Below, piece by piece: positions 3,738-52,703 of a stretch of DNA of 64,000 nt. The notes under the pieces were generated by a model. The model was not told the DNA's origin. It made no database searches and worked only from the letters and a program-made list of their open reading frames with translations. Location: contig JAUYLL010000106.1 in assembly GCA_030698375.1 (NCBI GenBank), positions 1-64,000 on the forward strand, read 5' to 3'. Position numbers and translations under genes: made by a program. This stretch comes from Nocardioides sp. (lineage in GTDB: Bacteria; Actinomycetota; Actinomycetes; Propionibacteriales; Nocardioidaceae). Numbering within the stretch: the first letter of the stretch is position 1; each line of letters begins with the position of its first letter.

Positions 3738-4084
3738 CGGCGAGGCCACCGCCACACCCCCTGCATCGTCATAACCCCACGGCAGACCGCCCTCCGCAAC
3801 CTGCGTGCCCCCACCCGTCGCGGTGAAGAACGCCGGGAGCTGGGGGCTCGGGGCGGCGGTCTTCGACGTGCACGGTGAGCCCCGCTGGGCACTGAGCATC
3901 ACGGGGGTGGAGGGGCGGCTCGCCCCGCCTCGACAGCAACAGCTCGGCCAGCGACTCCTGGCGGCCGCCCACGCACTCACCACGAAGATCTCCGCCCGCC
4001 CTGCCCCACGCTGAATATCGAGGCTCCGGCTCCGGCTCCGGCCGCGGCCCGGGACGCGGGGCCGGACCCTCTCGACCCTCTCGA

Positions 4085-5779
4085 TCAGCCGGAGGCCGCC
4101 GCCGACCCCGCGCGCACCGACTGCCTCGGGCCGGAGCCCTCGGTCAGGACGAAGCTGGGGTACTCCTGGTCGATCTCCTCCTGCAGGCGACGTCGGTAGC
4201 GAGGCGCGCCGCCGAGGTAGACCATCACGCGCGGCTTGTCGTCGCGGTCCAGGTTGATGTTGTGGCCGTTGAACCAGGACTGGGTCTGGGACAGGAGCAG
4301 CTTGGCGTTCACCTCGCGCACGTGCTCCACCCACGCGACCTCCGCCTCGCGCCGCCCCTCGAAGCGGGCGATCCCGTGGCTCTCGATATGGCGCGCGGTC
4401 TCGGTCATCCAGTTGACGACGTCCTCAATGCCGCGCGGGAAGTTGGCGGTCGCCGAGCCGGATTGCGGACCCACCAGGATGAACATGTTCGGGAAGTCCG
4501 AGACCTGGACGCCGAGACAGGTCTCGGGGCCGTCCTCCCAGCGGTCCTTGAGGTGCTCGCCCTCGCCGTTGACGATCTCGATCCGGTCGAACGCCCCTGT
4601 AACCGCATCGAATCCGGTGGCGTAGACGATGGCGTCGAGCTCGAGGTCACGCACCTTGCCGCCGCCGAGGTCAAGCCTCACGCCGGCCTCGGTGACCTCC
4701 TGGATGGGGTGGGCCATGAGGTCCACGAGCTCGACGTTGTCCTGATTGAAGGCCTCGTAGAAGCCCGACTCCCCCGCCACCCGCTTCGTCCCGAAGCCAT
4801 GGTCCTTTGGGATGAGCAGGTCGGCGACCCTCTGGTCCTTGACGCGCTGTCGGATCTTCTCGGCGACGAACTCGGAGAGCTCCTTGTTCGGCCCCGGCTC
4901 CATGATGGTGTCGCGGTAGTTGCCCATGTAGAGGCCCGCGCCCTGACCGTTGTAGAGCTCCTCCCAGTGGCGCAGGCGCTCCTCCCGCGTCACGTCGGTC
5001 GACAGCGTGCGGTCAGGCCGGTGGATAAAGCCGGCGGGGGTCTCCCGGCACCAGGCGAAGATCTCGTCGTACGAGGCGCGGAGCCGGGCCATCTCCTCCT
5101 CCGAGATGGGTCCGTTGCCCAGCGGCGTGCACCAGTTGGCGTCGCGCTGTAGGACGTAGAGCTCGGAGACCTTGTCGGCCACGTCGGTGATCACCTGGAC
5201 GCCACTCGCGCCGGTCCCGATCACCGCAATGCGCTTGCCGGTGACGTCGTAGTCCTCCGGCCAGTCGAAGGTGTGGGTCTCCAGCCCGCCAAAGGAGCCG
5301 CGTCCTGCCACCCGCGGGTAGGTCGGGACCGAGAGCAGGCCCATTGCGTAGAGCACGAACCTCGCGCGGATCTGCGAGCCGTCCTCGAACGAGACGGTCC
5401 AGCGCCAGTCGGCCTCGGACCACTCCGCGCGCACGACCCGGGCGTCGAACGTGATGTGGGGCCGCAGGTCGAACCGGTCTGCGACATGTTCGAGGTAGGA
5501 CAACGTCTCCGGCTGCGCCGAGAACTTCTCCTGCCAGTCCCACTCCGCCAGCAGCTCCGGGGAAAAGGAGTACTGGTACGTGTAGGACTCCGAGTCGAAC
5601 CGGCAGCCGGGGTAGCGGTTCTTGAACCAGGTGCCGCCCAGGCCCGAGTTGGCGTCGACCACGCGCACGTCCGCGCCGATCTCGAGCAGCTGGTGCAGCT
5701 GATAGAGGCCGCACATCCCCGCGCCGATGATCAGGTAATCGACATCGGAGGCGCCGGCCCCGTCCACCTTCGTTGTCAT
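4085..5779 (-). CDS. Type I Baeyer-Villiger monooxygenase (flavin-containing)
   Basis: A 564-residue cytosolic flavoprotein that would insert an oxygen atom next to a carbonyl, converting a ketone to an ester or lactone with NADPH and O2. An FAD-binding GAGMCG motif lies at residues ~17-22, with GGTWFKNRYPGCRFDSESYTY after it. The type I BVMO fingerprint FxGxxxHTxxWP appears as FGGLETHTFDWP, followed by the NADPH Rossmann motif GTGASGVQ. Length is normal for cyclohexanone/phenylacetone monooxygenase relatives. The ATG follows a purine-rich GGAGAGAG. It is monocistronic, with its own KstR2-like operator 19 nt upstream of the ATG. A lactone product would feed the ring-opening and beta-oxidation genes of the island; the substrate is unknown. 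Confidence 0.92.
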   Translation of the reverse strand: MTTKVDGAGASDVDYLIIGAGMCGLYQLHQLLEIGADVRVVDANSGLGGTWFKNRYPGCRFDSESYTYQYSFSPELLAEWDWQEKFSAQPETLSYLEHVADRFDLRPHITFDARVVRAEWSEADWRWTVSFEDGSQIRARFVLYAMGLLSVPTYPRVAGRGSFGGLETHTFDWPEDYDVTGKRIAVIGTGASGVQVITDVADKVSELYVLQRDANWCTPLGNGPISEEEMARLRASYDEIFAWCRETPAGFIHRPDRTLSTDVTREERLRHWEELYNGQGAGLYMGNYRDTIMEPGPNKELSEFVAEKIRQRVKDQRVADLLIPKDHGFGTKRVAGESGFYEAFNQDNVELVDLMAHPIQEVTEAGVRLDLGGGKVRDLELDAIVYATGFDAVTGAFDRIEIVNGEGEHLKDRWEDGPETCLGVQVSDFPNMFILVGPQSGSATANFPRGIEDVVNWMTETARHIESHGIARFEGRREAEVAWVEHVREVNAKLLLSQTQSWFNGHNINLDRDDKPRVMVYLGGAPRYRRRLQEEIDQEYPSFVLTEGSGPRQSVRAGSAAASG

Positions 5780-39216: not shown

Positions 39217-40229
39217 AGATCGACATGGGAATGATCGGGGCCTCGGCCGCCGCCTGCGGGCCGGTCGCCGCTGAGGCAGAGAGGTTCGGCTTCGACGGCG
39301 TCTGGGCGAGCGAGAGCGTCACGGACGCCTTCCTCCAGTCACAGGCCGCGCTGCTCGCCACCGAGCGGGTCACCGTCGGCACGGCGATCGCGGTGGCGTT
39401 CGCCCGCAACCCGATGTCGACGGCGTACCTCGCCTGGGACCTGGCCGCGATGTCGCGGGGGCGGTTCGTCCTGGGGCTGGGCAGCCAGATCCAGCCACAC
39501 ATCGAACGTCGGTTCTCGATGCCCTGGAGCGCTCCGGTCGCCCGTATGCGGGACTACCTGCAGGCGCTTGACGCCATCTTCTCCGCCTGGCGCGACGGGT
39601 CACGCCTGGACTACCAAGGCGTGCACTACCAGCACACCCTGATGACCCCGGTCTTCACGCCGCACCACCACGAACACCGGATCCCGACGATGATCGCGGC
39701 GGTGGGCGCCAAGATGACCGAGCTCGGCGGCGAGCTCTGCGACGGCCTGCTGCTGCACGGCATGACCACAACCGCCTACCTCGACCAGGTCACGCTGCCG
39801 GCGCTGGACAAGGGACTTGCGACATCGGGACGAAGCCGCGCCGACGTCGAGCTCTACTGCCCGCTCTTCATGGTCATGGGCGACACTGAGGAGGAGCTGG
39901 CGGCGAGCGCGCGGAAGACCCGCGAGCAGATTGCCTTCTACGCCTCGACCCCCGCCTACCGGGCCGTCCTCGACAGCGTCGGCTACGGCGAACTGCAGGG
40001 TGAGCTCCAGGGCATGTCGCGGGAGGGGCGCTGGGCGGAGATGGGTGATCTCGTCGACGACACCCTGCTGAACCACATCGCGCTGGTCGGGGCTCCCGAG
40101 GACATGCCCCGACTGTGCCGCGAGCGGTTCGCCGGGCGCCTGGACCGCGTGTCGTCGTACTTCGCCTGGCCTGGCGACGACCCCGACCGCGTGCGCAGCA
40201 TCCTGAACGGCTTCACCGAGCAGTCCTGA
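39213..40229 (+). CDS. LLM-class F420-dependent oxidoreductase (TIGR03617-like)
   Basis: A 338-residue luciferase-like protein. AAEAERFGFDGVWASESVTDAFLQ is the N-terminal part, TERVTVGTAIAVAFARNPMSTAYLAWDLAAMSRGRFVLGLGSQIQPHIERRFSMPW is the F420 subfamily core. The C-terminal half MVMGDTEEELAASARKTREQIAFYASTPAYRAVLDSVGY is conserved in the TIGR03617 group. A role in reducing or oxygenating a ring intermediate is inferred from context. It overlaps the upstream gene by ATGA. Confidence 0.87.
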   Translation: MKIDMGMIGASAAACGPVAAEAERFGFDGVWASESVTDAFLQSQAALLATERVTVGTAIAVAFARNPMSTAYLAWDLAAMSRGRFVLGLGSQIQPHIERRFSMPWSAPVARMRDYLQALDAIFSAWRDGSRLDYQGVHYQHTLMTPVFTPHHHEHRIPTMIAAVGAKMTELGGELCDGLLLHGMTTTAYLDQVTLPALDKGLATSGRSRADVELYCPLFMVMGDTEEELAASARKTREQIAFYASTPAYRAVLDSVGYGELQGELQGMSREGRWAEMGDLVDDTLLNHIALVGAPEDMPRLCRERFAGRLDRVSSYFAWPGDDPDRVRSILNGFTEQS

Positions 40230-40248
40230 CCGTCCCCGAGGAGGACCC

Positions 40249-40716
40249 ATGACCGACATCGAGTTCAGCGAGTTGCGCGACCGCGCGCGGATCGCGGACA
40301 CGCTGCACGCCTACAGCCGTGGGGTCGACCGGGTCGACATCGACCTGCTGCTGGACCTGTTCACCGAGGACGCCGCGTTCGACTACGGCCACGGGAATAC
40401 CACGCACGGCCGGGAGAACCTCGCAGAGCTCTTTCGCGCCGCGGTCAGCCGCTACACCGCTACGAACCACCACTGCTCGACCATCAGCTACCTCACCCTC
40501 GCCGACGGCCGGGCACAGACGATCACCTACGTGTATGCCTTCCATCAGAACTCCGAGACCGACCTCCAGCTCCACGTGTGGGGCAACTACGAAGACACGC
40601 TCGTCGACGAGGGCGACCGGTGGCGGATCAGCCAGCGCCGCGTGCGCGTGGCCGGCGTGAAGACGGCCGGCGCAGAAGCGGTCCCCGACCGTTTCGAGCA
40701 GTACGCCCGCGCCTGA
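40249..40716 (+). CDS. NTF2/SnoaL-fold protein
   Basis: A 155-residue protein of the SnoaL_4 type. RDRARIADTLHAYSRGVDRVDIDLLLDLFTEDAAFDYGHG is the typical N-terminal half with an Asp/His-rich pocket, and GDRWRISQRRVRVAG the last strands. GAGGAGG precedes the ATG. It lies 19 nt after the LLM gene and ends the plus-strand operon. Related proteins act as dehydratases or as small subunits in catabolic clusters; the function here is unknown. Confidence 0.82.
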   Translation: MTDIEFSELRDRARIADTLHAYSRGVDRVDIDLLLDLFTEDAAFDYGHGNTTHGRENLAELFRAAVSRYTATNHHCSTISYLTLADGRAQTITYVYAFHQNSETDLQLHVWGNYEDTLVDEGDRWRISQRRVRVAGVKTAGAEAVPDRFEQYARA

Positions 40717-40722
40717 CCCAGG

Positions 40723-40749
40723 GCGGAGCACCCCGCTCACTCGCTCCGC
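40723..40749. terminator. Possible terminator between convergent genes
   Basis: GCGGAGC (40723-40729) pairs with GCTCCGC (40743-40749) in the 54-nt gap between the convergent NTF2 and SDR genes. The stem is short and lacks a T-tract, so this is tentative. Confidence 0.3.
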
Positions 40750-40770
40750 TCGTGGTGGGGCAGAAGGCCC

Positions 40771-41526
40771 TCAAGCGTGTCGCGACAACCCGCCGTCGAC
40801 CGCAATCGACTGTCCGGTGACGTAGGACGCCCCGGCGGAGCACAGGAAGGTGACCAGGGCAGCCGCCTCGCGGGCTTCCCCGAACCGACCCGTCGGAACG
40901 TTCGCGGCGGCGTACGCCACACGGGTGGCGTCGTCGGGGAAGTGCCGACCAAGCTGCTCGCTGTGGACCCTGCCCGGCGCCACGCAGTTGACTGTCACCC
41001 CGACGGAAGCCACTTCCCGGGCGTACGCCTTGGACCACAGCCTGCACGCGGCGATCGCAGCCTGCGCCGCTGAAACGGCCGTGGGCTCGAGGAGGCCCGT
41101 CAGGTTCACAATGCGACCGCGCCCGCTCGCCTCCAGCTCCGGCCGCAGTTCCTCGGCAAGTCGTCGTTTGACGTGGAAATTCAGTTCGAAGGACCGCCGC
41201 CACGCATCCTCGTCGAGCGCGCCACCGGGGGCGTCCGCCTGGCCCGCGTTGTTGATGAGCACGGTGACCCCGCCGAGCCCCTCACGAGCCGCGGCACCGA
41301 CTGCCTGCGCAGCGCCCGGCTCGGTGAGGTCACACGCCAGCTGGACCGGCGGCGGTCCGCCGAGATCAGCGATCCTGACCGCAGTGGCGGCGAGCGCCTT
41401 CTCCCTTCTCGCGATCAGGAGCACGCGGGCACCGTGTCGGGCGAGGTCCTCGGCGACCGCCCTCCCGATCCCCGCGCCAGCGCCGGTGACGATCGCACCT
41501 ACTCCGCGCAGGCCCGGGTCGATCAT
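40771..41526 (-). CDS. SDR-fold protein lacking the Tyr-Lys catalytic pair
   Basis: A 251-residue SDR. TGAGAGIGRA binds the dinucleotide, NNAGQADAPG and the C-terminal TGQSIAVDGGLSRHA are normal. Where SDRs read SAxYxAxK, this protein reads SAAQAAIAACRLWSK: Tyr is Gln and the Lys position is Ala. The preceding Ser is also altered (NLTGLL). It may be non-oxidoreductive or use different chemistry. GAGGAG lies 5 nt before the ATG at 41526, and an operator copy is 101 nt further upstream. Confidence 0.82.
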   Translation of the reverse strand: MIDPGLRGVGAIVTGAGAGIGRAVAEDLARHGARVLLIARREKALAATAVRIADLGGPPPVQLACDLTEPGAAQAVGAAAREGLGGVTVLINNAGQADAPGGALDEDAWRRSFELNFHVKRRLAEELRPELEASGRGRIVNLTGLLEPTAVSAAQAAIAACRLWSKAYAREVASVGVTVNCVAPGRVHSEQLGRHFPDDATRVAYAAANVPTGRFGEAREAAALVTFLCSAGASYVTGQSIAVDGGLSRHA

Positions 41527-41627
41527 CGGTTCTCCTCGTGTTCGAACCACGCTCAATCTGAGCCCTACGGGGTGCCGACGCTTCGGCGCTCCCAGGCCAA
41601 CCCTAGGAAGGGCCGCCACCCTAGTCA

Positions 41628-41641
41628 AGCAATTGCTTGCT
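41628..41641. promoter_or_regulatory. KstR2-like operator upstream of the SDR gene
   Basis: AGCAATTGCTTGCT has one mismatch to AnCAAGnnCTTGnT. It overlaps a perfect 14-bp palindrome CAAGCAATTGCTTG (41626-41639). It is the last copy before the IS110 element, so it marks the right edge of the regulon. Confidence 0.55.
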
Positions 41642-41749
41642 CTACTTCGATCCGTCTCGCCCAGGCGGACATCTAGACGGTATGGAGGGACCGCCCAGGG
41701 TCTCTGAGTGGTTGCGGGCCGGGGCCTCGCTCACAAGATTCGTGGGTTA

Positions 41750-41772
41750 CCGAGCAGGGGCCGCCTGCTCGG
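41750..41772 (+). other. Strong stem-loop in the IS110 left non-coding end
   Basis: CCGAGCAGG (41750-41758) pairs perfectly with CCTGCTCGG (41764-41772) around a 5-nt loop, 28 nt before the transposase start. It lies in a ~150-nt non-coding stretch. In IS110 elements this position encodes the bridge RNA, so it is a candidate part of it. Confidence 0.4.
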
Positions 41773-41799
41773 TCTATCCGACATTTGTGGGAGGCCCCG

Positions 41800-42891
41800 G
41801 TGTTTACCGGGCGTACGAGCGTTGGGCTTGACGTGCACGCGCGATCGGTCGCGGCTGCGGCGATCGACTCCGTCACGGGCGAGCTGTTTCAGGCGAAGCT
41901 GACCCCCTCGCACGAGCACATCAAGTCCTGGGTCCAGGGCCTGCCGGGTCCGGTGGCGGTGACCTATGAGGCCGGCCCGACCGGCTTCGACCTGTGTCGG
42001 GCGCTGGAGGCCGCGGGCATCCGCTGTCAGGTCGCCGCACCGTCGAAGCTGCAGAAGCCCTCAGGTGATCGGGCCAAGACCGACGCGAAGGACGCGATCC
42101 ACCTGGCCCGGTTGTTGCGGCTCGACGAGATCACCGCGGTGAGGATCCCCAGCGTCGACCAGGAGGCCGCCCGGGACCTGGTCCGCGCACGCGAGGACTG
42201 CCGCGGTGACCTGATGCGCGCTCGTCACCGGCTCTCGAAGCTGCTGTTGCGACACGGGATCGTCTACTACGGCGGAGCCGCCTGGACGGGCAAGCACGAC
42301 GCCTGGTTGCGTCACGAGGCCCAACCCCAGCTGAGTTCGCGAGCGACCCGGCTGGCGTTCGACTCCGACTACGAGGCCGTGTTGGGCGTCAAGGCCCGCC
42401 GAGACCGTCTCGATGCTGCGATCGAGGTGATGGCCGCGGACTCGGAGTTCACCGCGATCGTGCATCGGTTGGGCTGTCTGCGCGGTGTCAGCACCTTGAC
42501 CGGGTTCGCTCTCGCGGTCGAGATCGGTGACTGGCACCGCTTCACCGGCAACACCATCGGCGCCTTCGTCGGGCTCGTGCCCAGCGAGCACTCCTCGGGC
42601 CAGTCGCGGGTCCAGGGATCGATCACCAAGACCGGCAACACCCACGTTCGGCGCCTCCTCGTTGAGGCCGCCTGGCACCACCGCGGGCGTTACGTGGTCG
42701 GCAAGACCATGCGCGAGCGGTGGGACCTGGCCCCAGCATCCGCGCGGGCCCGCGGCGACGAGGGCAACCGCAGACTCCACCACCGCTGGGTCAAGTTCAT
42801 CGACCGTCGCAAGAAGAACACCATCGCCAACGTTGCCATCGCCCGCGAGCTGGCCGGCTGGTGCTGTTCCCTGGCCGTGCTCGAGGAGTAA
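41800..42891 (+). CDS. IS110-family transposase
   Basis: A 363-residue DEDD recombinase. GLDVHARS, YEAGPTG and AKTDAKDA carry the N-terminal acidic residues. The C-terminal transposase_20 half holds RGVSTLTGFALAVEIGD, GLVPSEHSSG and GSITKTGNTHVRRLLVEAAW, with the serine of the IS110 active centre in SEHSSG. GTG at 41800 has GGGAGG five nucleotides upstream. The protein is full length. IS110 elements lack terminal inverted repeats, so its ends cannot be set from sequence alone; about 280 nt follow before recognisable unrelated sequence. Confidence 0.92.
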   Translation: MFTGRTSVGLDVHARSVAAAAIDSVTGELFQAKLTPSHEHIKSWVQGLPGPVAVTYEAGPTGFDLCRALEAAGIRCQVAAPSKLQKPSGDRAKTDAKDAIHLARLLRLDEITAVRIPSVDQEAARDLVRAREDCRGDLMRARHRLSKLLLRHGIVYYGGAAWTGKHDAWLRHEAQPQLSSRATRLAFDSDYEAVLGVKARRDRLDAAIEVMAADSEFTAIVHRLGCLRGVSTLTGFALAVEIGDWHRFTGNTIGAFVGLVPSEHSSGQSRVQGSITKTGNTHVRRLLVEAAWHHRGRYVVGKTMRERWDLAPASARARGDEGNRRLHHRWVKFIDRRKKNTIANVAIARELAGWCCSLAVLEE

Positions 42892-43111
42892 CCGACCCCA
42901 CGATCTGCTTCGCCGCGCACCAGCTGGTGGCAGCGCGAGGAGCGACCCGCGCAACAACTATGGGCAACGAGCACCCGCTCGTGACGCCCGCTCCTAGACA
43001 CGCGGTTCAGTTCCTGCCGAAAGCACCGTCCTGCGGTAATCAACCCGCGCATATCAGTCTGACCGCGCGTCGCCAACGACACGCTCACCAGCAACAACCA
43101 CGGCGAAGTAC

Positions 43112-43147
43112 GAGGCGCCCGCCCCGGGCAATCGGGACGGGCGCCTC
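43112..43147. terminator. Hairpin downstream of IS110 transposase
   Basis: GAGGCGCCCG (43112-43121) pairs with CGGGCGCCTC (43138-43147), with further inner C-G pairing. It is about 220 nt after the transposase stop, in the otherwise gene-free 42892-43400 stretch. Confidence 0.5.
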
Positions 43148-43419
43148 ACCATGCCTCTTGACAGGTCGTCACTCCATATCAGTTGTGATTGGGCGGCGCC
43201 TGCCGGCGAGGACCCAGACCGACAGCGCCAACCCGCGCACCTGAAGGCGCACGGCGGCGCCGGCATGGGGGTCGACCTTGTTGCTGGTGGGTGCAGTCGT
43301 AGGGCGTGACCGCGTCGAGCTTCATGCAGAAGTGGTCCTCGATCACCGACATCTTGATGACCCGGTGACGGCCTGCGGAACTCCGGCACTCCCGGCACCT
43401 GGCCGCAGGCTCACCCCAG

Positions 43420-43640
43420 CCCTCCGGCAGGGGTCCCCCGCCGGGGAAGCCCCGTCCGCCGAAGCCGCCTGTGTCGGTGTTGATCTCGCCTGCGGCGTCG
43501 AGGTCGGCGTCGAGGTCGGCGAGAATGACGCGGTCCCCGATCACGATTCCCTCGAGTATCTCGGTGTGAACGGGGCCTGTCTGAACCGCCCCGGCGAGTC
43601 CGGAGACTTTGGTGTGTCCCGGGTTCCACGTAGTAGAGAT
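43420..43640 (-). pseudogene. C-terminal fragment of an efflux membrane-fusion (HlyD/MacA-like) protein
   Basis: About 70 residues read VSGLAGAVQTGPVHTEILEGIVIGDRVILADLDADLD... then GGFGGRGFPGGG. The EIxEGIxxGDRVILADLD strand followed by a Gly-rich tail is typical of the C-terminus of periplasmic adaptor proteins of ABC-type exporters. The remainder of the gene is missing. It abuts the IS3 fragment, suggesting IS-mediated truncation. Confidence 0.5.
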
Positions 43641-43651
43641 TCCTTGGATTC

Positions 43652-43876
43652 TCATGCCACGGTGATGATGCGGTTGCGCTCGAACTCTATCGGCGTGAGC
43701 CAGCCAAGCTTGCTGTGGCGGCGCTTCCGGTTGTGCCAGATCTCGAGGTACTCGAACATCGCGTTGGCGAGTTCGAGGCGGGTGTTCCACCTCTTGCGGC
43801 CGAGCAGCTCGACCTGCATGCGAGACCAGAAGGACTCGATCATGAAGTTGTCGTAGCAGTCCCCGATGCTTCCCAT
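43652..43876 (-). pseudogene. IS3-family transposase C-terminal fragment
   Basis: 74 residues corresponding to the end of OrfB of IS3-family (rve integrase core) transposases: GSIGDCYDNFMIESFWSRMQVELLGRKRWNT then IWHNRKRRHSKLGWLTPIEFE. The conserved glutamate of the DDE motif (MIESFW) is present but the first two aspartates are missing, so it is inactive. Confidence 0.82.
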
Positions 43877-43885
43877 CGAGGCCAG

Positions 43886-44301
43886 CAGCCCCGAATCACT
43901 CCGGTATCCAAGGCACTCCTGCTGGACCGCGAGCCCATCGAGGGCTTCGGGTCCGAGGAGCTGTACGAGGTCTTCGCCGAAACCTGGGCTACAAGCTGCA
44001 GCAGGGGAAGACGAAGACGTACATCGCTAACGTCGAACACGTCCGAGTACTCATCTTCAACGGGACCGCGGTAGAGCCGACTCGGGCGGACTTCTTCGTC
44101 ATCTCGAACGGCATTGAACTCAACGACACCGACGTCGAGGCGTGGCAGCGGCTCCAGACCATCACTGCTGACCTGTTGCGTCCGCACGGCATCGCGGTCG
44201 GACCTCTCCGCTGCACCGACATCAGCCGCATGACGGCCGACCTATACCGCCGCTCGACTCCGATTCCCTCCGATGTGTTGAACGCGCCGGTCTTCCCGTA
44301 G
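43886..44301 (+). pseudogene. Frameshifted gene of unknown function
   Basis: Two blocks read as one protein after a single frame change near 43982. The first is SKALLLDREPIEGFGSEELYEVFAE and the second LGYKLQQGKTKTYIANVEHVRVLIFNGTAVEPTRADFF, then ISNGIELNDTDVEAWQRL and a close at DVLNAPVFP. No family recognised. The N-terminus is lost at the IS3 junction. The codon pattern and lower GC differ from the catabolic genes, in keeping with an unrelated origin. Confidence 0.45.
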
Positions 44302-44482
44302 CCGGACAGCACTACTCCTCGGTCGTAGCCACGCCAACTCGGGGCGCACCAGCGCACCCGCCAGCCGCGCATCAACCACTGGTCGAGTCGCTGGCGGACC
44401 TGGCCAGTGCAACGGGATCCCCCATTGTGCCGACCCATCCTTTGCTGGCAAGGAGATCTGCTACTCCCAGCGCCCCAACAGT

Positions 44483-44645
44483 TCACACCCACACATTGGC
44501 GGGACGCATCGGAGTCCGCATCTGCGGCAATGAGGTTGCGTCATTCCACCGCCGAAGTTCCCCCAAAGCCGTGTCGACTTCGTGCCAGCCAAGCCGCTCG
44601 CGCGGCGACACCGCCTCCACGAGCGTGGAGTCGTACTGCTGCCAC
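44483..44645 (-). other. Possible short coding remnant
   Basis: A minus-strand stretch reads TLVEAVSPRERLGWHEVDTALGELRRWND and ends PMRPANVWV before a stop. The residue composition looks protein-like rather than random high-GC translation, but there is no start or known family. Nothing else convincing lies in 44302-44714. Confidence 0.2.
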
Positions 44646-44714
44646 GTCAGTGGAGGGCACCTCGCTAGGTGCCTAGGCTGGGAAAGCCATTCCCGACCAC
44701 GAACCGAGGTCCCT

Positions 44715-45032
44715 GTGCCCGCCAGCCGTTCCGCCCGACAGAGGAAGGCCAGCGCCGAGGCAGGAGCGCTGGCAGTGGTCCGCATCGACGTGAGCGCCGA
44801 CGACTCCTTTGCCTACAAGATCTCCTGCACGCAGTGCGAGGTGCCGCGACCCGGGACCGGCACCCGCGCCTGGAGCACACGCCGGCCGGGCGAGGACAAC
44901 GGCTATATGGCCACGATGGATCGATGGATCCTTCACCTCACGTCCAAGCACCCGGACGCCGCGGCCCCGTGTCTGGACTACCTGCCCGAAGCCCGTGCAC
45001 GTCTCCAGGAGCGACGCGATGCCCGAGCTTGA
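44715..45032 (+). CDS. Hypothetical 105-residue protein
   Basis: Begins at GTG 44715. The middle ISCTQCEVPRPGTGTRAW contains a CxxC pair, and GEDNGYMATMDRWILHLTSKHPDAAAPCLDYLPEA gives helices and a distal His-Cys arrangement that could bind metal together with CTQC. It is unlike anything I recognise. It precedes the small ORF at 45257 and the helicase on the same strand, so may belong to the same accessory module. Confidence 0.45.
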   Translation: MPASRSARQRKASAEAGALAVVRIDVSADDSFAYKISCTQCEVPRPGTGTRAWSTRRPGEDNGYMATMDRWILHLTSKHPDAAAPCLDYLPEARARLQERRDARA

Positions 45033-45183
45033 GGAGCTCGCCCTGCCTCTCGGCACAGCGGCAGGATCCGGTCGAATGGCTGCCAGCAGAGCCCTGATGA
45101 GACCGAGCGGGCTCCAGTGGTCACGCGGCGGCCTCGACCATCACGGCGGCCAGTTTCTCACCGCCTACGTCGCTGGTGTCTAG
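45019..45183 (+). CDS. Possible 54-residue ORF
   Basis: ATG at 45019 overlaps the end of the 105-residue gene by 14 nt. The product MPELEELALPLGTAAGSGRMAASRALM... shows no known domain. A Shine-Dalgarno-like GGAGCG is upstream. It may be a real small gene coupled to the previous one or chance. Confidence 0.22.
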   Translation: MPELEELALPLGTAAGSGRMAASRALMRPSGLQWSRGGLDHHGGQFLTAYVAGV

Positions 45184-45256
45184 ACGGGCGCAGGGTTGGC
45201 CACCGCGAGGACACACAGCGCCGCCAATGGATGCCACGCAAGGAGGTATCCGCACG

Positions 45257-45475
45257 GTGTGCCGCTCTACAACGGTCGGCACGAGCTTGGGTGGACAGGT
45301 GCGACTCGACCGCGCTGCGGACGTGGGCGAGCCGGCTCTGTTCGTGGAGGAGACACCGATAATGTCCGGTGGTGGCCAGTCCTCGACGATCCAGTGCTCG
45401 TCGACGCAGCGCTTCCCCGCGCCGGGGCGGCACGCGACAGCAACAGCGGCCGTTGCCGGCCGCAGGGCCGGGTGA
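45257..45475 (+). CDS. Small hypothetical protein upstream of helicase
   Basis: A 72-residue product from GTG 45257, with AAGGAGG about 10 nt upstream (a strong ribosome site). The C-terminal part STIQCSSTQRFPAPGRHATATAAVAGRRAG is basic. Its stop lies inside the apparent N-terminus of the helicase ORF, so the helicase probably starts within or after it. Function unknown. Confidence 0.4.
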   Translation: MCRSTTVGTSLGGQVRLDRAADVGEPALFVEETPIMSGGGQSSTIQCSSTQRFPAPGRHATATAAVAGRRAG

Positions 45476-47105
45476 GCGGCTGTGGGTGCTGGATGTGCCG
45501 TACGCGACGCAGGTCGACGGCGCCACCTGGCACCCTGCCGTCAAGACCCACCTGTACGTCGGGTGCGCCTTGCCCGCGCACCTCGCGCCCTACTCTCCGG
45601 GGCCCTACACGCTCGGTCGGTTCATCGAGAACACGCTCAACACTGACGATCCGACGCCCAGCCCCGAGCCGACAGACGCGCTCGAGCCCCGGAGGACCCA
45701 GTTCGAAGCAGCCGATGCGATCGCGGCGCGGGCCGCGGCGGGCGGACGGCAATTCCTACTCGCCGACGAGCCCGGCGTAGGGAAGACCATCTCCGCGGTC
45801 CTCGGGGCGACAGCGGTGGGAGACCTCCGCGGTGCGCGACGGGTGCTCGTCGTGGCCGACCGGCCCGCCGCCATCACGATCGGCCACTGGTGCCGCACGA
45901 TCACGGCGCTGGGGGACGGCGGTCTGGAGTGGGTGGTGATCACGTGGGACCGGCTGGACAAGGTCAAGGACCACACCTGGGACGTGATCATCGCGGACGA
46001 GGCCCACGCCTTGCGACGTACGACGACGAAGCGGTGGAAGCTCTGGACGCGGATCTCTGGACACGGGAAGCCGCACGACAAGGCGCCGTTCGTCATCGCG
46101 ACCACCGCGACGCCCGGACACACACCGCTCGAGCTGCCCTACCTCGCCCCGGCCTATGCCCAGGTGCTGGGCGAGTCGACGACGGAGTGGACCTCGGCGA
46201 CGCGACCCGGTGACACCTTCGCCGCCGCCCTCGAGCGCCACGGCGTCGGGGTGGAACTGGGACGCTACGGCGCGACGTGGACCACCGATCCGGCACGGCG
46301 GGCTGCGGACCTCAAGCTCGTGCGCGGCTGGCTCAACGAGGAACGGCCGCCGGCGATGCTGCACCGCGCCGCGGCCTGGGGGCCGGTACCGATCTCGGGC
46401 ATGCCCGTGAGGCTCACGCCGACCGAGCGGACAGCGTACGAGGCGGAGTGGGGCGAGTTCTGTCGTGAGATGGACGTCGCCCGGCGCGGTCGCAACACGG
46501 CGAAGGGTCGGGCCGCGCTCCTGCGGTTCCGGCAAAAAGCCGGGCTCATTCGCGTCGACTCGACGGTCGCCTGGATCGCGCAGCAGGTCGAGGCCGAGCG
46601 ACAGGTGGCGTGCTCGGTCGAGTTCGTCGCGACCGCCGCCGACCCGATTGCCGACCGGCTGCGCGACTCCGGCATCGAAGTCGCCTCGATCTACGGCCGC
46701 GACCGGTTCGACCCAGAGGCCGAGCGGCTCCGGTTCCAGACCGGGCAGGCGAGGGTCTGCGTGTTCACCACGGTCGCCTCGATCAGCCTGCATGCCCGTG
46801 AGACCCTCGCGGACGGCCGCCGTGCGAGCACAGCGCCGCGGGTCGGTGTCTTCCACCAGGCGCGCTTCTCCGGCATCGCCGGACGGCAGGTGACCGGCCG
46901 CACCCACCGCGACCACCAAGTCTCACCGTGGCACATCGCGTATGCCGAGGGCACCGTCGAGGAGCAGGTGGGCAAGGTGATGGTGGAGCGGATCGCCGCG
47001 GCCTCCGACACTGTGGGCGGCGACACCACTGGCCTCGCCGACCTCGCCCAACTCCTCGGAGCCGATTGGCTGCCCGTCACAACCCTGACCGCGGACGGCA
47101 CCTGA
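45369..47105 (+). CDS. SNF2-like DEAD/DEAH helicase of mobile-element type
   Basis: Up to 578 residues. WVLDVPYATQVDGATWHPAVKTHLYVG resembles a DUF5710-like module. Walker A is ADEPGVGKT (about residue 138), DEAH is IADEAHALR, motif III is ATTATP, and motif VI-like GRQVTGRTHRDHQ is near residue 510. The start is uncertain; the first ~35 residues are Arg/Ser-rich and may not be translated. Similar helicases occur in actinophages and integrative elements. It is the best candidate for the original mobile element's own core. Substrate and role (DNA translocation, defence or replication) unknown. Confidence 0.72.
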   Translation: MVASPRRSSARRRSASPRRGGTRQQQRPLPAAGPGERLWVLDVPYATQVDGATWHPAVKTHLYVGCALPAHLAPYSPGPYTLGRFIENTLNTDDPTPSPEPTDALEPRRTQFEAADAIAARAAAGGRQFLLADEPGVGKTISAVLGATAVGDLRGARRVLVVADRPAAITIGHWCRTITALGDGGLEWVVITWDRLDKVKDHTWDVIIADEAHALRRTTTKRWKLWTRISGHGKPHDKAPFVIATTATPGHTPLELPYLAPAYAQVLGESTTEWTSATRPGDTFAAALERHGVGVELGRYGATWTTDPARRAADLKLVRGWLNEERPPAMLHRAAAWGPVPISGMPVRLTPTERTAYEAEWGEFCREMDVARRGRNTAKGRAALLRFRQKAGLIRVDSTVAWIAQQVEAERQVACSVEFVATAADPIADRLRDSGIEVASIYGRDRFDPEAERLRFQTGQARVCVFTTVASISLHARETLADGRRASTAPRVGVFHQARFSGIAGRQVTGRTHRDHQVSPWHIAYAEGTVEEQVGKVMVERIAAASDTVGGDTTGLADLAQLLGADWLPVTTLTADGT

Positions 47106-47308
47106 CCGGGCTCAGCTCAGGTGCGGGACCTCGGCGGTGTAGAGAAACCACCCGGTCGTGAGGTGCTGCACTCCGCCGCCTGCCGGCGTATCTCCAGGTC
47201 GGCTTGGCAGTGCGGTCCTGTCGAGGAGCGCTGGCCTCCCTGAACGACTGCCGAGCGTTCTGCCGCCGTAGCCCGGTTGAGCGGCGCTGGGCGGGGTACG
47301 CCTCTCCC

Positions 47309-47491
47309 ATGGCTCCTTCAGCGTTGGTTCGCCCGCAGGACGGTAAGTGGATCGCCGGTGTCTGCTCCGGACTGGCCAACCGGTTCGGAGTGCCGACTGG
47401 GGTGGTGCGGTTGCTGTTTGTGATCTTCGGGCTGTTCGGAGCGGGCGAGATCGCCTACATCGTGCTGTGGGTCTTGATGCCCAAGGGCTGA
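47309..47491 (+). CDS. PspC-domain protein
   Basis: A 60-residue PspC protein: LVRPQDGKWIAGVCSGLANRFGVPTGVVRLLFVIFGLFG, then a transmembrane helix AGEIAYIVLWVLMPKG. PspC proteins take part in phage-shock or membrane-stress responses. ATG at 47309 gives a full single-domain protein. Confidence 0.82.
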   Translation: MAPSALVRPQDGKWIAGVCSGLANRFGVPTGVVRLLFVIFGLFGAGEIAYIVLWVLMPKG

Positions 47492-47815
47492 CCGCTCCCT
47501 GATCCACCGCGGTCGCGCCCTCGCCGACGTACGTCGCGACCGTTGGCGCTAGAAGGCGTGAGGCCGTCAAGCGTTAAGCAAAGCCCCTCAACCGGACTCT
47601 GCGAAGGAACGACATGAACGGCGATGCGTGACCGGGGGACAACAACCTGCGTCATAACGCCGCCAGTCGGGGACCTCCGGATCTGCCGATGCAGCGCTTC
47701 TCTGGTTATTGACGACTGATCGTCGCGAAGCGCGCTCGTTGCCGCCGCTACTTCTACGCCAGCACGATCGGCTCGATCTCGTGGCGACGAGGTGCTAGCG
47801 AGTCGAAGCCGGCGT
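47492..47815. other. Gene-free stretch
   Basis: No convincing coding frame, RNA gene or repeat was seen in these 324 nt between the PspC gene and the convergent 317-residue gene. Base composition looks lower in GC than the catabolic genes. Confidence 0.4.
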
Positions 47816-48769
47816 CTAGCGGCGCTTGACCCAAGCCCGGAGTCGTGACCATACAGACAGGTTCTTCTCTCGCGGAGAGTCCCAGTCCGCCTCGGAAAGC
47901 GCCGACGGCTGGAGAACCTCGGGTCGATCGGCGCCAGCATCAAGCAGCTCGTCGAGACTGGTGAATGTTGGCTCCCACTCCGCGTCGTCCCACGATCGGC
48001 GAGCCGCTTGCGCGTCCTCGCTGTTCGAGAACTCCATTAGTTCCGCGTCATGCGCGGACGCCGCGTACCCGACCGCATCCAGAAGCCGTCTGGCTGCGGC
48101 GTCGCTAAGGCCGAGCCGCTTGGCGAGGACTGAGGGGTACCAAGCGTTCTTGGACTCGACGAACTGCTTCAACTTCCTGGGATAGAGGACGTGCCGGCCG
48201 GCCCAGTTGGCAGCCAGTTCCTCGAGCTCCTCACACCTCTTGGTGTCGTGCCGAAGGAGCACCCGATCTACTCCGACACCGAGCAGGACAACCGGGAACT
48301 CCTGCAACAACCAGAGAACCAGCGATGTGATCTGGAAGCCATTGCCACCGAACTCGCCCGGTCGTGTGACGACGAGAAGGTCTTCATCGGACGAGTAGTG
48401 ACCCTCCGCGATTGCCTTGGCCAGATAGCGCAGAGGCATCTGTGGGGGGTGGCGAAAGTGGACGAGGCCGTGCTCGTCGATGCCGAACGCATCTGCCGGC
48501 TCGAACGGCATGACTGTCGCCACGTTGCCCTCACGACGAACCGTCGCGAGCCACCACCACTCGGCCGAGAAGGGCGGAGCGTCTACTTGAGGCTCGACGC
48601 CGATGAGGTCGGGCCTCTGCTCGCCGATGATCCGGCTGACCACGTCGTGAACGCTGGCCTCGGTGTCGGACGGGACCTCGACCTCGCCATATCTCACGAG
48701 TTCGTCCCAAGACATGGGCGGTCGCGGGTTGGCACCCACGTCCAGATGCGGGGCAAGAATGAGTCTCAC
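47816..48769 (-). CDS. Unrecognised 317-residue protein at right island end
   Basis: GTG at 48769 was chosen because AGGAAGG is 7 nt upstream; the frame stays open to the tRNA fragment, but that part is not protein-like. Features: MSWDELVRYGEVEVPSDTEASVHDVVSRIIGEQRPDLIG, WWWLATVRREGNVATVMPFEPADAFGIDEHGLVHF, a hydrophobic patch ITSLVLWLLQEFPVVLLGVGVDRVLL, a helix-turn-helix-like YPSVLAKRLGLSDAAARRLLDAVGY at ~210-234, an acidic tail and a basic end RLRAWVKRR. No family recognised. Transcribed away from the att repeat. Confidence 0.6.
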   Translation of the reverse strand: MRLILAPHLDVGANPRPPMSWDELVRYGEVEVPSDTEASVHDVVSRIIGEQRPDLIGVEPQVDAPPFSAEWWWLATVRREGNVATVMPFEPADAFGIDEHGLVHFRHPPQMPLRYLAKAIAEGHYSSDEDLLVVTRPGEFGGNGFQITSLVLWLLQEFPVVLLGVGVDRVLLRHDTKRCEELEELAANWAGRHVLYPRKLKQFVESKNAWYPSVLAKRLGLSDAAARRLLDAVGYAASAHDAELMEFSNSEDAQAARRSWDDAEWEPTFTSLDELLDAGADRPEVLQPSALSEADWDSPREKNLSVWSRLRAWVKRR

Positions 48770-49029
48770 TGTTCGCCTTCCTGGTCTGAGCTTGAGGCCA
48801 CTACCAGCGTCCCTTTGAGTCCCTTCGCGACTGAAGGTAGGCCATATAGACCACGTAGGCCCCCCGATCAGGCCTCCCAAGGCGGAGCCCACGTCGAGAC
48901 CCCGATGAGTGCGTCTTACCACCGCCTGTCGGACATCGCGGTGTGCAGCTTCGGCTGGCAGTCGCCTGCCCACCGCAGGGATGTAGCTGACCGAAGCGGC
49001 GTCGACGCAGTCCGAACAGCCCGCTGCTA

Positions 49030-49050
49030 GTTGCAGTTTTAGTTGCAGTT
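49030..49050. repeat. Paired GTTGCAGTT repeats at right island end
   Basis: GTTGCAGTT (49030-49038), TTA, GTTGCAGTT (49042-49050), the same 9-3-9 layout and orientation as 2808-2828. Found in the gene-free 48770-49143 interval next to the right att copy. Confidence 0.55.
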
Positions 49051-49143
49051 CGCCGTCGTTCAGCACCGGTCGCCTGGGTCCGATTAGCCGTCCCTGAGCG
49101 TAAATGGACCCCGCCGGACGCCAGTGAACCCCTTGACTTGCGT

Positions 49144-49191
49144 CTGAAAAGTGGAAGGTCGGCGGTTCGACCCCGCCCCTGCCCACGAGCA
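49144..49191 (+). repeat. Right attachment repeat (attR-like), tRNA-Phe 3' fragment
   Basis: Exact 48-bp copy of 2692-2739, comprising the tRNA-Phe anticodon loop to its 3' end. The D arm and acceptor 5' strand are missing, so it is not a functional tRNA. It defines the right boundary of the island. Confidence 0.9.
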
Positions 49192-49194
49192 TGC

Positions 49195-49227
49195 GAAGGC
49201 CCTCACCGGGTTCCGGTGGGGGCCTTC
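49195..49227 (+). terminator. Terminator hairpin after att copy
   Basis: GAAGGCCCTCACCGG (49195-49209) pairs with CCGGTGGGGGCCTTC (49213-49227), one G-T pair, loop GTT. This is very probably the ancestral tRNA-Phe terminator, since it starts only 4 nt after the tRNA remnant. Confidence 0.75.
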
Positions 49228-49356
49228 GGCTTGTGTGGCCGCGGACGAGAGCCGGCCGAGCTCGGGACCACGAGCACGGCGGCGGCGCGCCACCTCGACA
49301 CCGGCGACGGCCCGAACCGACAATGACACGACAGCCCCCACCGAAGGAGCCGTGTC

Positions 49357-49995
49357 GTGACGATCCGGGTGTTCCTGCTCGATGATCATGAAGTTGTCCG
49401 CACCGGACTCAAGCACCTGCTCGAGAGCACCGGCGAGATCGAGGTGGTCGGTGAAGCGAGTACGGCGGCGTCGGCACTGGCACGCATCCCTTCTGCTCGT
49501 CCGGACGTGGCCATCCTCGACGCCCGCCTCCCGGACGGGAGCGGAATCGACGTGTGCCGCGAGGTGCGCTCCGCTGATCCGGGGATCAAGGCCATCGTGC
49601 TGACGTCATACGACGATGACGAAGCGCTCTTCGCCGCCATCATGGCCGGCGCGGCCGGATACGTTCTCAAGCAGGTGAGCAGCGGTGACCTGATCTCGGC
49701 CGTCCGCCATGTCGCCGCGGGCGGTTCGCTTCTCGACCCGACTCTGACCGCGAAGGTCATGGAGCGCATTCGCGAGGGCGCTGCCGGGGAGCCTGATGAG
49801 CTCAAGTCGCTGACGCCACAGGAACGCCGAATCTTGGAGCTCGTCGCCGAGGGCATGACCAACCGTCAGATCGGTGAACGGCTGTTCCTTGCCGAAAAGA
49901 CGGTGAAGAACTACATGTCGAACGTGCTGGCAAAGCTGGGCCTTGAGCGACGCACACAAGCAGCCGTCTTCGCCTCGAAACTGCTCAAGGGGTGA
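49357..49995 (+). CDS. NarL/DosR-like response regulator
   Basis: A 212-residue two-domain regulator. Receiver: DD at 9-10, phospho-acceptor D55 in ILDARLPDG, T83 and K105. Output: LTPQERRILELVAEGMTNRQIGERLFLAEKTVKNYMSNVLAKLGLERRTQAAVFAS, a LuxR-type HTH very close in pattern to mycobacterial DosR/DevR. AAGGAG lies before the GTG. It is expected to bind DosR-type boxes in response to hypoxia or NO/redox, with the DosS-like kinase encoded convergently downstream. Confidence 0.88.
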   Translation: MTIRVFLLDDHEVVRTGLKHLLESTGEIEVVGEASTAASALARIPSARPDVAILDARLPDGSGIDVCREVRSADPGIKAIVLTSYDDDEALFAAIMAGAAGYVLKQVSSGDLISAVRHVAAGGSLLDPTLTAKVMERIREGAAGEPDELKSLTPQERRILELVAEGMTNRQIGERLFLAEKTVKNYMSNVLAKLGLERRTQAAVFASKLLKG

Positions 49996-50049
49996 CCGGA
50001 GGTGCACCCCGAGGACGGCTTGCTGCTGCGAGTCTTGAAGTCAGCAAGT

Positions 50050-50070
50050 CCAGCCTGACCGTCAGGCTGG
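50050..50070. terminator. Bidirectional hairpin between regulator and kinase
   Basis: CCAGCCTGA (50050-50058) pairs perfectly with TCAGGCTGG (50062-50070), loop CCG. It overlaps the kinase stop, between convergent genes. Confidence 0.6.
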
Positions 50071-51744
50071 CACGCTCCACACCACTCGAGTCCCTCGCCC
50101 GCCGTTGGAACCGACGTCGAAGGTCCCGCCGTAGCTCTCAGCCCGAGTCCGCAGGTTGGCCAAGCCGCTCACGTGCTCTGGTGACTCAAAACCCTTGCCG
50201 TCGTCGGCAACCTCGACGGTGATCTGACCCGCCGCCGCGTTCACCACGACCTCGATCATGGACGCCTCGGAGTGCTTGACCGCATTCGTCACGGCTTCCG
50301 TGACAACGGCCGCGATGTCGTCGGTCAGCGATGCCCCCGCCACCAGGTCCACCGGACCGAGGAAGCTCGCCCGCGGCCTGACCGCGCCCTCGCTGACCTG
50401 GTCGACGATCTCGAGCACGCGAGCTCGCAGACTCACCGATGAGCTCGACGGGTCCCGCTGCATGGCGAAGATGCTCTGTCGGATCTGGGCAATCGCACCA
50501 TCGATGGCGCGGATCTGCTCACCGATTCCCTTGGCGGTGACCGGGTCGGCTCCGCCGGCGATGACTTGCAGGTTCAAGCCGGCTCCGAAGAGTTGCTGGA
50601 TGACGAAATCGTGCAGGTCGCGCGCGATCCTTGCTCGGTCCTCCAGGACGGCGTACTGCCGCCGCGCCTCCTTGACCGCCGCTCGCTCCATCGCAACGCT
50701 GATGTGGCCGGCGAAGGACATAGCCATGTCGACATCGCGGTCAGTGAAGACCCCACCCCCGGGGCCATGAGCGACGCACAGAACTCCCCCAGCCCGTCCC
50801 TCTACGGCGAACGGAACGACCATCATCTCCCTGAGGAGGCTCTGTTCCTGAAAGCCGGGATTGCCCAGGGCCGACATGTCGTCCACGACCCTGGGCTGTC
50901 CCGACACGATCGCGTCACCAGCCACCGTGCCCGTGACCGGGAACGTCATGGCGAGTAGGTCGTCAGCGCCAATCCCTCGGGCCTGGTCCACGACGAGGTG
51001 TTCGCCACCGGCATCGGCGACAACCACGCTGACCAGGTCGGCACCGGCGAGCTCGGCGACTCGATCGATGAGAAGCTCGATCTCGCTTCCGTCGTCGGTC
51101 GAAGCCAGGTGCCGCGTCACCTCGGCCAACGAGCTCGACCACCGAGCCCGGTACTGAGAGTCCTCGTACAACCTGGCGTTCTCGATGGCCACCGCTGCGG
51201 TGGCCGCGAGTGCCTGCGCGAGCTCCTCGTCATCCGCGCTGAAGGCGCCGTTCAGGCTGTCGGTCAGGTAGAGGTTGCCGAACACTGACTCGCCCACCCT
51301 GATCGGGACACCGAGAAAGCTCTCCATGGGGGGATGGTGGGCCGGGAACCCGCTGGACCGGGGGTCCGACGACAGGTGCTCGAGGCGGACCGGGACCGGG
51401 TCCTCGATCAACGCCCCCAGCAGACCCTTGCCCTGGGGAAGGCTGCCGATGCGCTGCGCGACGTCGTCGTCTATCCCGACGGGGATGAACTGCACCAGTC
51501 CGCCGTCGACACCGATGACTCCCATCGCCCCGTAGCGGGCGCGCAGAAGACCCATCCCGATCTCGACAATCCTGCGCAGCACCGTGGGGAGGTCGAGGTT
51601 GCTTGTGAGCTCATTGTTGACCTGGACGAGCTCGCGCAGTCGCGCCTGGGCGTCGACGACCTGTCCCGCACGCTCGACCAGCTGCGCCACCAGCGTCTCG
51701 ATCTCGAGAGTGGGTCCGGTCGACCCGGCTTTGCTGCCAGTCAT
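50062..51744 (-). CDS. DosS/DosT-like sensor histidine kinase (GAF-GAF)
   Basis: A 560-residue kinase. GAF-A spans about 45-195, GAF-B about 215-355, HisKA_3 about 365-430 with H378 in DLHDFVIQQLF, and HATPase about 460-560 (EAVTNAVKHSEA, VADDGKGF, GLANLRTRAESYGG). GAF-A has GFPAHHPPMESFLGVPIRVGESVFGNLYLTD, matching the DosS region that holds the haem-ligand histidine, so a haem oxygen/NO sensor is likely. AGGAG precedes the ATG. It faces the response regulator. Confidence 0.9.
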   Translation of the reverse strand: MTGSKAGSTGPTLEIETLVAQLVERAGQVVDAQARLRELVQVNNELTSNLDLPTVLRRIVEIGMGLLRARYGAMGVIGVDGGLVQFIPVGIDDDVAQRIGSLPQGKGLLGALIEDPVPVRLEHLSSDPRSSGFPAHHPPMESFLGVPIRVGESVFGNLYLTDSLNGAFSADDEELAQALAATAAVAIENARLYEDSQYRARWSSSLAEVTRHLASTDDGSEIELLIDRVAELAGADLVSVVVADAGGEHLVVDQARGIGADDLLAMTFPVTGTVAGDAIVSGQPRVVDDMSALGNPGFQEQSLLREMMVVPFAVEGRAGGVLCVAHGPGGGVFTDRDVDMAMSFAGHISVAMERAAVKEARRQYAVLEDRARIARDLHDFVIQQLFGAGLNLQVIAGGADPVTAKGIGEQIRAIDGAIAQIRQSIFAMQRDPSSSSVSLRARVLEIVDQVSEGAVRPRASFLGPVDLVAGASLTDDIAAVVTEAVTNAVKHSEASMIEVVVNAAAGQITVEVADDGKGFESPEHVSGLANLRTRAESYGGTFDVGSNGGRGTRVVWSVPA

Positions 51745-51763
51745 GGATCTCCTGTGACTCGAG

Positions 51764-51783
51764 CTCGGGACGTTGGTCCTTCA
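51764..51783. promoter_or_regulatory. DosR-box-like site between kinase and stress-protein genes
   Basis: CTCGGGACGTTGGTCCTTCA matches TTSGGGACTWWAGTCCCSAA at 14 of 20 positions, including both GGGAC and GTCC halves. It lies 20 nt upstream of the kinase start and 78 nt upstream of the USP gene. Confidence 0.5.
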
Positions 51784-51860
51784 TCTTGTGGCCCCACGTC
51801 GGTGCCGCACATCCGTCCACCCGACCAGGTTGGGTGACAGTCCCGGACCTGGAGGCCGCC

Positions 51861-52703
51861 ATGAACAGCTCTCGCGCCGTCGTCGTCGGCGTCGACGACA
51901 AGCAACCCCACGCCGTGAAGTTCGCGCTGGAGGAAGCAACCCGCACAGGGTCCGAGCTCATCGTGGTGCACTCCGCAGGCCTGCCTGGTCAGACGTACGA
52001 AACCTACAGCGCTGCGACCCTCTTCGCATCACTACGCGACGCCGGGCAGGCGATCCTGGACCTCACCCGCGAGATGATCGACAGCATCGAGCACGACGTC
52101 CCCGTTCGTTACGTCCTGTCGCCCAGGGCACCCGCGGGGGCTCTCGAGCAGGAAGCGCGGGATGCCCGCCTCCTCGTCATCGGTACCGAGAAGGCCTCAT
52201 GGTTCGAGCGCCTGCTCGGCGGCGCCATCGCCGAGCACCTCGTCCGCCATGCCGCCGTCCCCGTTGTCGTCGTACCCGAACGGGACCATCACCGCGAGAA
52301 GGCCGACGTCGTGGTCATGATCGACGGGAACAGCGCGGCTCGCGGTCCGCTGCGCTTCGCTTTCGACGCGGCGACGGCCCGTAACGGGGTTCTCCACGTC
52401 CTCCACGCCACACCCCCCGGCACTGCTCCGGAGGACGCCCTGGCGGCTCAGGCGGCAGTCAGCGAGGTGCTGGCGGGCTGGCGGGCTGAGTTCCCCGACG
52501 TCCAGGTTCGTACCGAGTTCGTCACCGCACATCCCCCCGAGGCCTGCCTGGAGGCCACGGCGAGCGCCGGCCTCGTCGTACTCGGGCGACCGAGCGGACG
52601 CCCGGTGCCGCTGGCGCTGGCCCGCCCCGTCGCTGCGCAGGTCGTGCGTCGCGCCAAGTGCCCGGTGGTCATCATCCCTCTGAGCTTCCGGAGCGCAGCA
52701 TGA
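51861..52703 (+). CDS. Tandem universal stress protein
   Basis: A 280-residue protein with two USP domains (about 1-142 and 150-280). The first has VVGVDDKQPHAVKFALEEA and the ATP-binding-type VIGTEKASWFERLLGGAIAEHLVRHAAVPVVVVP. The second ends VAAQVVRRAKCPVVIIP but lacks the full Gly-rich motif. TGGAGG lies before the ATG. In mycobacteria USP genes are classic DosR targets, consistent with the box upstream. Confidence 0.87.
   Translation: MNSSRAVVVGVDDKQPHAVKFALEEATRTGSELIVVHSAGLPGQTYETYSAATLFASLRDAGQAILDLTREMIDSIEHDVPVRYVLSPRAPAGALEQEARDARLLVIGTEKASWFERLLGGAIAEHLVRHAAVPVVVVPERDHHREKADVVVMIDGNSAARGPLRFAFDAATARNGVLHVLHATPPGTAPEDALAAQAAVSEVLAGWRAEFPDVQVRTEFVTAHPPEACLEATASAGLVVLGRPSGRPVPLALARPVAAQVVRRAKCPVVIIPLSFRSAA

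Follow-up and report, generated by a model that had tools for sequence, protein, structure and literature searches.

Integrons, sedentary chromosomal integrons and CALIN are the described systems closest to the arrangement reported here. Like them, it comprises rows of mostly one-gene cassettes with sites in one direction and a tyrosine recombinase, its cassettes are common to several species and reordered, and its cargo includes unfamiliar and defence-like genes. Unlike them, it has short sites without an attC-like fold, cassette ORFs that point both ways, and a recombinase that is Xer-like, lacks the IntI insertion, and lies inside the arrays, in three copies itself as a cassette. Excerpts of a large survey report, for Actinobacteria, a few CALIN and one integrase that has no cassettes, but not a single complete integron (PMC9024848), and an excerpt of a review counts Actinobacteria among the phyla in which integrons have been detected (PMC8618304). 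A search of the open-licence PMC literature found no prior description of the present cassette system, which is not proof of absence.

Further points of comparison are the tyrosine recombinases XerC and XerD. Among profiles and solved structures, they match the array recombinase best; it nevertheless scores far below their cut-offs and goes with arrays of sites, not with one dif site. For the helicase that is the main subject here, DEAD/DEAH helicases of Rhodococcus, Dietzia and Corynebacterium plasmids are similar (41-43% identity over 95% of the length in the records listed), yet differ in their plasmid context. In one Dietzia plasmid (L007, 5847-9641), a relative of 42% identity is preceded by two small ORFs and a tyrosine recombinase gene. 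The defence helicases DISARM DrmD, BREX BrxHI and DpdE give weak local matches to the helicase ATPase core but none over the full length, with bit scores that fall far short of the NCBIfam cut-offs; partner genes of DISARM, BREX or Dpd were not noticed in the window region. The window is the whole analysed stretch of 64,000 nucleotides from Nocardioides sp. (contig JAUYLL010000106.1, positions 1 to 64,000); loci compared with it carry L numbers. Comparison of these loci suggests that the helicase gene probably forms a mobile cassette by itself, one of those belonging to an integron-like system present in Nocardioides and certain other actinomycetes.

Helicase gene and promoter

The helicase gene occupies positions 45372-47105 of the forward strand as an intact ORF of 577 aa with a GTG start and a stop at 47105. 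In a Pfam scan of 542 aa, ResIII exceeded its cut-off (E 7.5e-9) and SNF2-rel_dom remained just under its own (23.8 bits vs 24.9); the PHROG family 'DNA helicase' matched with E 3.3e-23. The sequences PGVGKT, DEAH and QVTGRTHR, which we take to be motifs of the ATPase and C-terminal parts of helicases, are invariant across 30 aligned sequences; together with the profile matches, they place the gene among the SF2/SNF2-like helicases. The original prediction of an SNF2-like helicase is thereby upheld as to the reality of the ORF and, through ResIII and PHROG, as to its helicase nature, with the SNF2 profile itself falling marginally short; the DUF5710-like start that it also described was not recovered (no DUF5710 match among these 542 aa at E <= 0.1). 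A PDB search with the helicase profile returned nothing at E <= 0.01, and an AlphaFold2 model built from 30 close relatives reached a pLDDT of 42 and a pTM of 0.36.

Comparison with relatives identifies the GTG at 45372 as the conserved start codon. A -10-like hexamer, TAATGT, lies 12 nt 5' of it (45360-45365, forward strand). A TANNNT hexamer is present within 20 nt 5' of the start in 85 of 88 relatives, in 83 of them at exactly -12, which suggests that the mRNA is probably leaderless and that the promoter is carried with the gene. In L037, L066 and L072, the helicase copy stands behind another reading frame and is without the hexamer. Substitution rates were obtained from 87 gap-free comparisons against the window copy (median dN 0.055, dS 0.49); as pairs with indels are inflated by this procedure (some dN > 0.5), medians alone are quoted, and on these medians the helicase is under purifying selection. 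Left out of the dN/dS, hexamer and 72-aa-frame counts were L090, L093 and L096, whose flanks equal those of L026, L069 and L052, and L029, which has no stop within the sequence compared.

Small ORFs upstream of the helicase

Two small ORFs precede the helicase, and it had been proposed that the three form one accessory module, serving in defence, replication or transfer, within an island lacking an integrase. The first ORF encodes a CxxC protein of 105 aa (44715-45032, forward strand). It is a real gene of a conserved family, with relatives at E <= 1e-10 in 86 of 118 Nocardioides genomes, one match each. Within this family, a subgroup at 78-94% identity in 13 genomes stands apart from the remainder at about 56-69%, and may be mobile too. 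The second ORF, of 72 aa (GTG at 45257 to the stop at 45475), had been put forward as a basic protein with a strong ribosome site. It overlaps the helicase promoter and first codons out of frame; its frame is open over the full length in 47 of 88 helicase relatives (gap-free), and it therefore behaves unlike a conserved gene of its own.

That the three ORFs lie in series in the window, and that the CxxC gene adjoins the helicase also in L020 and L028, would fit a common module. In the window, L009, L020, L023 and L028 (L194 repeats L009), a CxxC gene adjoins the helicase or stands at most about 2.2 kb from it; CxxC relatives are otherwise mostly located away from the helicase. Of 96 loci compared at the DNA level, 5 had homology to 44700-44900 and 92 to the helicase. 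With the small ORFs not conserved at homologous loci, the three-gene module fails, and we regard it as very improbable. The wider expectation of mobile accessory DNA was borne out, with the helicase and its own promoter, between recombination sites, as the apparent moving unit. Nor does the island lack every trace of an integrase, as the C-terminal scrap of a tyrosine recombinase lies between the CxxC ORF and the helicase.

Array map of the window

The recognisable array spans 44538-48925 on the forward strand and contains four units. It opens with an exact copy of the 15-bp site GCGTCATTCCRCCGC at 44538-44552 (position weight matrix (PWM) score 20.8), followed by the first unit, whose cargo is the CxxC gene together with the C-terminal scrap of the array-type recombinase (45124-45183; LDHHGGQFLTAYVAGV plus stop, 15/19 residues matching; E 0.003 by tblastn over a longer stretch). 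The second unit is the helicase cassette, running from core to core over 45219-47179 as defined by its alignment with the L026 cassette. Homology to L026 begins at the CGCCGC core at 45219-45224, where the left arm of the site is not recognisable, and the cassette ends with the site GCTGCACTCCGCCGC at 47165-47179 (PWM 20.1), 59 bp past the helicase stop. The third unit carries a PspC-domain protein gene (47309-47491, start codon inferred; PF04024, E 2.4e-20) and ends with the site GCGTCATAACGCCGC at 47649-47663 (PWM 26.3). In the fourth, an ORF without assigned function lies antisense at 47816-48715, its start inferred inside the mechanical ORF 47816-49192; the site GCGTCTTACCACCGC at 48911-48925 (PWM 26.1) forms the right end. 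All five features designated as sites or cores, as well as the scrap and the PspC-domain gene, are on the forward strand, and the PWM detected no reverse sites within 40001-52000 of the window. The window array is decayed; of its recombinase, just the C-terminal scrap is left.

Just upstream of the array lie an IS110-family transposase gene (41785-42891, forward strand), an IS3-type transposase fragment (rve_2, rve_3; 43652-43876, reverse strand) and, immediately before the array, a decayed coding stretch with a frame break (43880-44301, forward strand). The latter has no relatives among the compared loci apart from the window itself.

Putative recombination sites

In the best-preserved helicase copies, homology ends inside copies of GCGTCATTCCRCCGC, and alignment of the helicase ends reveals identically oriented GCGTCATTCCRCCGC-like sequence at either side. 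Searches with GYGTCATTCCRCCGC gave 52 matches in 39 of 118 Nocardioides genomes (reversed control: 0), and searches with GCGTCATTCCRCCGC gave 42 matches in 27 of 147 relatives (control: 1). Around the recombinase, sites form tandem arrays in one direction: 120 forward and 8 reverse sites were counted at 21 loci with up to 2 mismatches (19 control matches over both strands), and 176 forward and 8 reverse sites with 35 control matches at 26 chosen loci by a PWM, which was itself built from forward sites of such array loci. The 148 intervals between sites have a median length of 1317 bp. The clearest case with a helicase is locus L026 of Nocardioides jiangsuensis, which holds 14 forward sites and 1 reverse site in 17.6 kb; sites at -169 and +1793 relative to the helicase start enclose the gene.

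According to 147 sites, the left arm of 15 bp is followed by a weakly conserved stretch or right arm; as these sites were picked by consensus (<=2 mismatches), their conservation is partly by construction, which does not apply to the strand bias. A k-mer search near the sites for a second conserved element gave nothing convincing. Folding of the sites showed a mean z near 0 in five stretches (80 of the 147 sites, mononucleotide shuffles), and the best inverted partner of each of the 147 was no better than in downstream or shuffled DNA. A model of the site as an attC-like hairpin was rejected, there being neither a folding signal nor an inverted partner.

Shared cassettes and their breakpoints

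The helicase cassettes of the window and L026 align over 1960 bp with 87.5% identity, from core to core. A cassette of 1.06 kb is about 97% identical in L137, L182 and L057, where agreement extends from CGCCGC to CGCCGC with differing sequence outside. In L055 and L185, the helicases are 97.4% identical, and a 0.5-kb cassette directly follows the helicase in the former and precedes it in the latter, with another interval between. The recombinase cassettes of L135, L186 and L190 agree up to CCGCCGC and then become different. When all shared segments were pooled (n=217), the 5' end was near a site in 65 (12.1 expected) and the 3' end at a site in just 8; many of the 65 are pairs of recombinase genes, and many of those start 36-54 bp after the start of the site, not in the core. 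As read from these alignments, cassettes common to different species are shown to break at the CGCCGC core and to change order and neighbours.

Xer-like tyrosine recombinase

The recombinase was first found beside one site cluster and sits within arrays; in the three copies L135, L186 and L190, it is itself bounded by site cores. Its best profile is XerC (TIGR02224, E 1e-27, far below the XerC and XerD cut-offs) and its best solved structure XerD (1a0p, E 8e-14). Residues that we presume to be catalytic are kept in 23-25 of 24-26 aligned segments. Of 118 Nocardioides genomes, 47 hold a relative at E <= 1e-30; in 25 the identity is >=62%, some of these copies being fragments or containing stops. 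Across the class, relatives at E <= 1e-60 were detected in 15 of 394 genomes, of which 12, from five families, are at >=61% identity. In the window's genome (assembly 87% complete) no close copy was detected, the best match being at 31%.

The occurrence of sites follows recombinase identity. Nine loci of relatives above 50% identity have 47 forward and 2 reverse sites, each locus at least one forward, and none were detected at five of five loci at or below 50%, two of which had first been seen in the survey giving 120 forward and 8 reverse sites. As regards an attI beside the gene at one end of the array, 12 of the 19 loci with a recombinase of >=62% identity have a site <=200 bp upstream of the match, but sites flank the gene on both sides. 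A proper array is wanting at L180 (2 forward, 3 reverse sites), L191 (1 forward) and L215 (1 forward, 1 reverse). In L026 (about 3980-4298) and L137 (3048-3209), a short cassette holds little beyond the N-terminal SAM-like domain of a tyrosine recombinase; the segment is common to both loci, and the L137 copy has a weak PF13495 match. It may regulate the array recombinase or act as a decoy, unless it is a relic.

One-gene units in a row, sites in one direction and a tyrosine recombinase would be compatible with a canonical integron or CALIN with attC sites. This we consider very improbable: besides the missing fold and inverted partner of the sites, the integron-integrase profile TIGR02249 gives the recombinase 43.7 bits against a cut-off of 265, over residues 239-299 only, and is surpassed by the XerC profile, and alignment to XerD reveals no large insertion and hence none of the IntI type. 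From its sequences, the system would work like an integron yet lacks two defining features of integrons, the attC fold and the IntI insertion.

The sites could instead delimit non-autonomous elements that a DDE or other transposase mobilises, with the tyrosine recombinase a bystander, and transposase genes are indeed at hand, of IS110 and IS3 type upstream in the window and of ISL3 type in L135. Such an origin is hard to reconcile with direct repeats whose breakpoint lies inside the repeat, with sites whose presence or absence follows recombinase identity, and with a recombinase carried between the same cores, and we hold it to be very unlikely.

Helicase distribution and neighbourhoods

The genome collection yielded 121 helicase relatives, of which 80 were kept; at 82-94% identity, the hosts are Nocardioides, Aeromicrobium, Brachybacterium and a few others. 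A full-length helicase is present in 29 of 59 Nocardioides genomes, with partial or broken copies in two more, and in 11 of 98 relatives of the window's genome (itself counted). Flank, end-alignment, reading-frame-context and site counts at helicase loci exclude those below 80% identity, i.e. the plasmid relatives. Grouping by flank homology within 2.5 kb of the gene gave 54 contexts among 88 loci, 43 of them single; 34 contexts result if any flank homology within 8 kb is counted (L090, L093, L096 and L004 were left out). Several copies have one context in common by descent. Between loci of different contexts, homology extends no further than about 170 bp 5' of the start codon and about 77 bp beyond the stop.

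Among the viral contigs scanned with the helicase, two stretches fitted a pattern, and none encodes a relative. The sole match in the phage collection (MT835526.1, L004; 82.7%) is a 41-kb record named 'Bacteriophage sp.'. As it is an unverified faecal scaffold that has 274 bp of downstream flank in common with Brachybacterium L082, its helicase was rejected as a phage gene; the record may in fact be a contig from a bacterium.

Of 92 helicase loci, 81 had at most one forward site and 60 of the 92 had none (flanks up to 8 kb, some shorter). Loss of unselected ends with age, or off-target insertion, could explain this scarcity of sites. These numbers also bear on the possibility that the helicase is an ordinary old chromosomal gene, its neighbourhoods scrambled by general recombination and loss, and that the sites are incidental repeats. 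Such a history would accord with sites near a minority of copies, with copies that have one context by descent, and with unselected flanks, which could have diverged at a dS near 0.5. Incidental repeats would not, however, account for homology that stops at sites on both sides in several pairs, for one-way arrays tied to one recombinase, or for unrelated cassettes with the same breakpoints; we judge this history unlikely.

Cargo and a possible defence role

Predicted ORFs were present in 133 array intervals, 59 along the site direction and 74 against it, with orientations taken from a simple codon-composition finder and hence approximate. Array ORFs were picked by eye for two scans of ten each (nine in common) and constitute a chosen sample, not a rate: of the ten compared with PADLOC, six had matches at E <= 0.01 and four none. 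The matches comprised AriAB/PtuA-like and GajA/NsnB-like ATPases, PDC-S60 twice, a helical REase and weak AAA-ATPase matches. For the helicase itself, PADLOC gave weak, local matches. A defence role is plausible because array ORFs include PADLOC matches; that the helicase is a DNA-acting defence helicase is, from this analysis, a tentative proposal for which we would give less than even chances.

Discussion

For the preferred reading, the helicase as a single-gene cassette, we envisage the following course. The Xer-like recombinase would cut and rejoin the CGCCGC core, releasing cassettes as circles that would then be inserted at another site. Because it carries its own leaderless promoter, the helicase could be expressed wherever it lands, and would have settled in many places outside arrays. 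On a broader scale, and with somewhat less assurance, the comparisons favour an actinomycete gene-capture platform apart from integrons, with short, unfolded sites in which crossover occurs at CGCCGC, a self-travelling Xer-like recombinase, and a stock of defence and unfamiliar genes. The helicase would be its most successful passenger, leaving arrays by virtue of its own leaderless promoter and now residing in dozens of chromosomal places.

If the platform is a separate one, working with simple sites, the stockpiling of cassettes would have evolved more than once. Genetics in GC-rich hosts would gain a compact recombinase with its site, and the platform would point to places for finding unfamiliar defence genes. 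It would also mean that integron-type gene shuffling takes place in a group of bacteria that very rarely have integrons.
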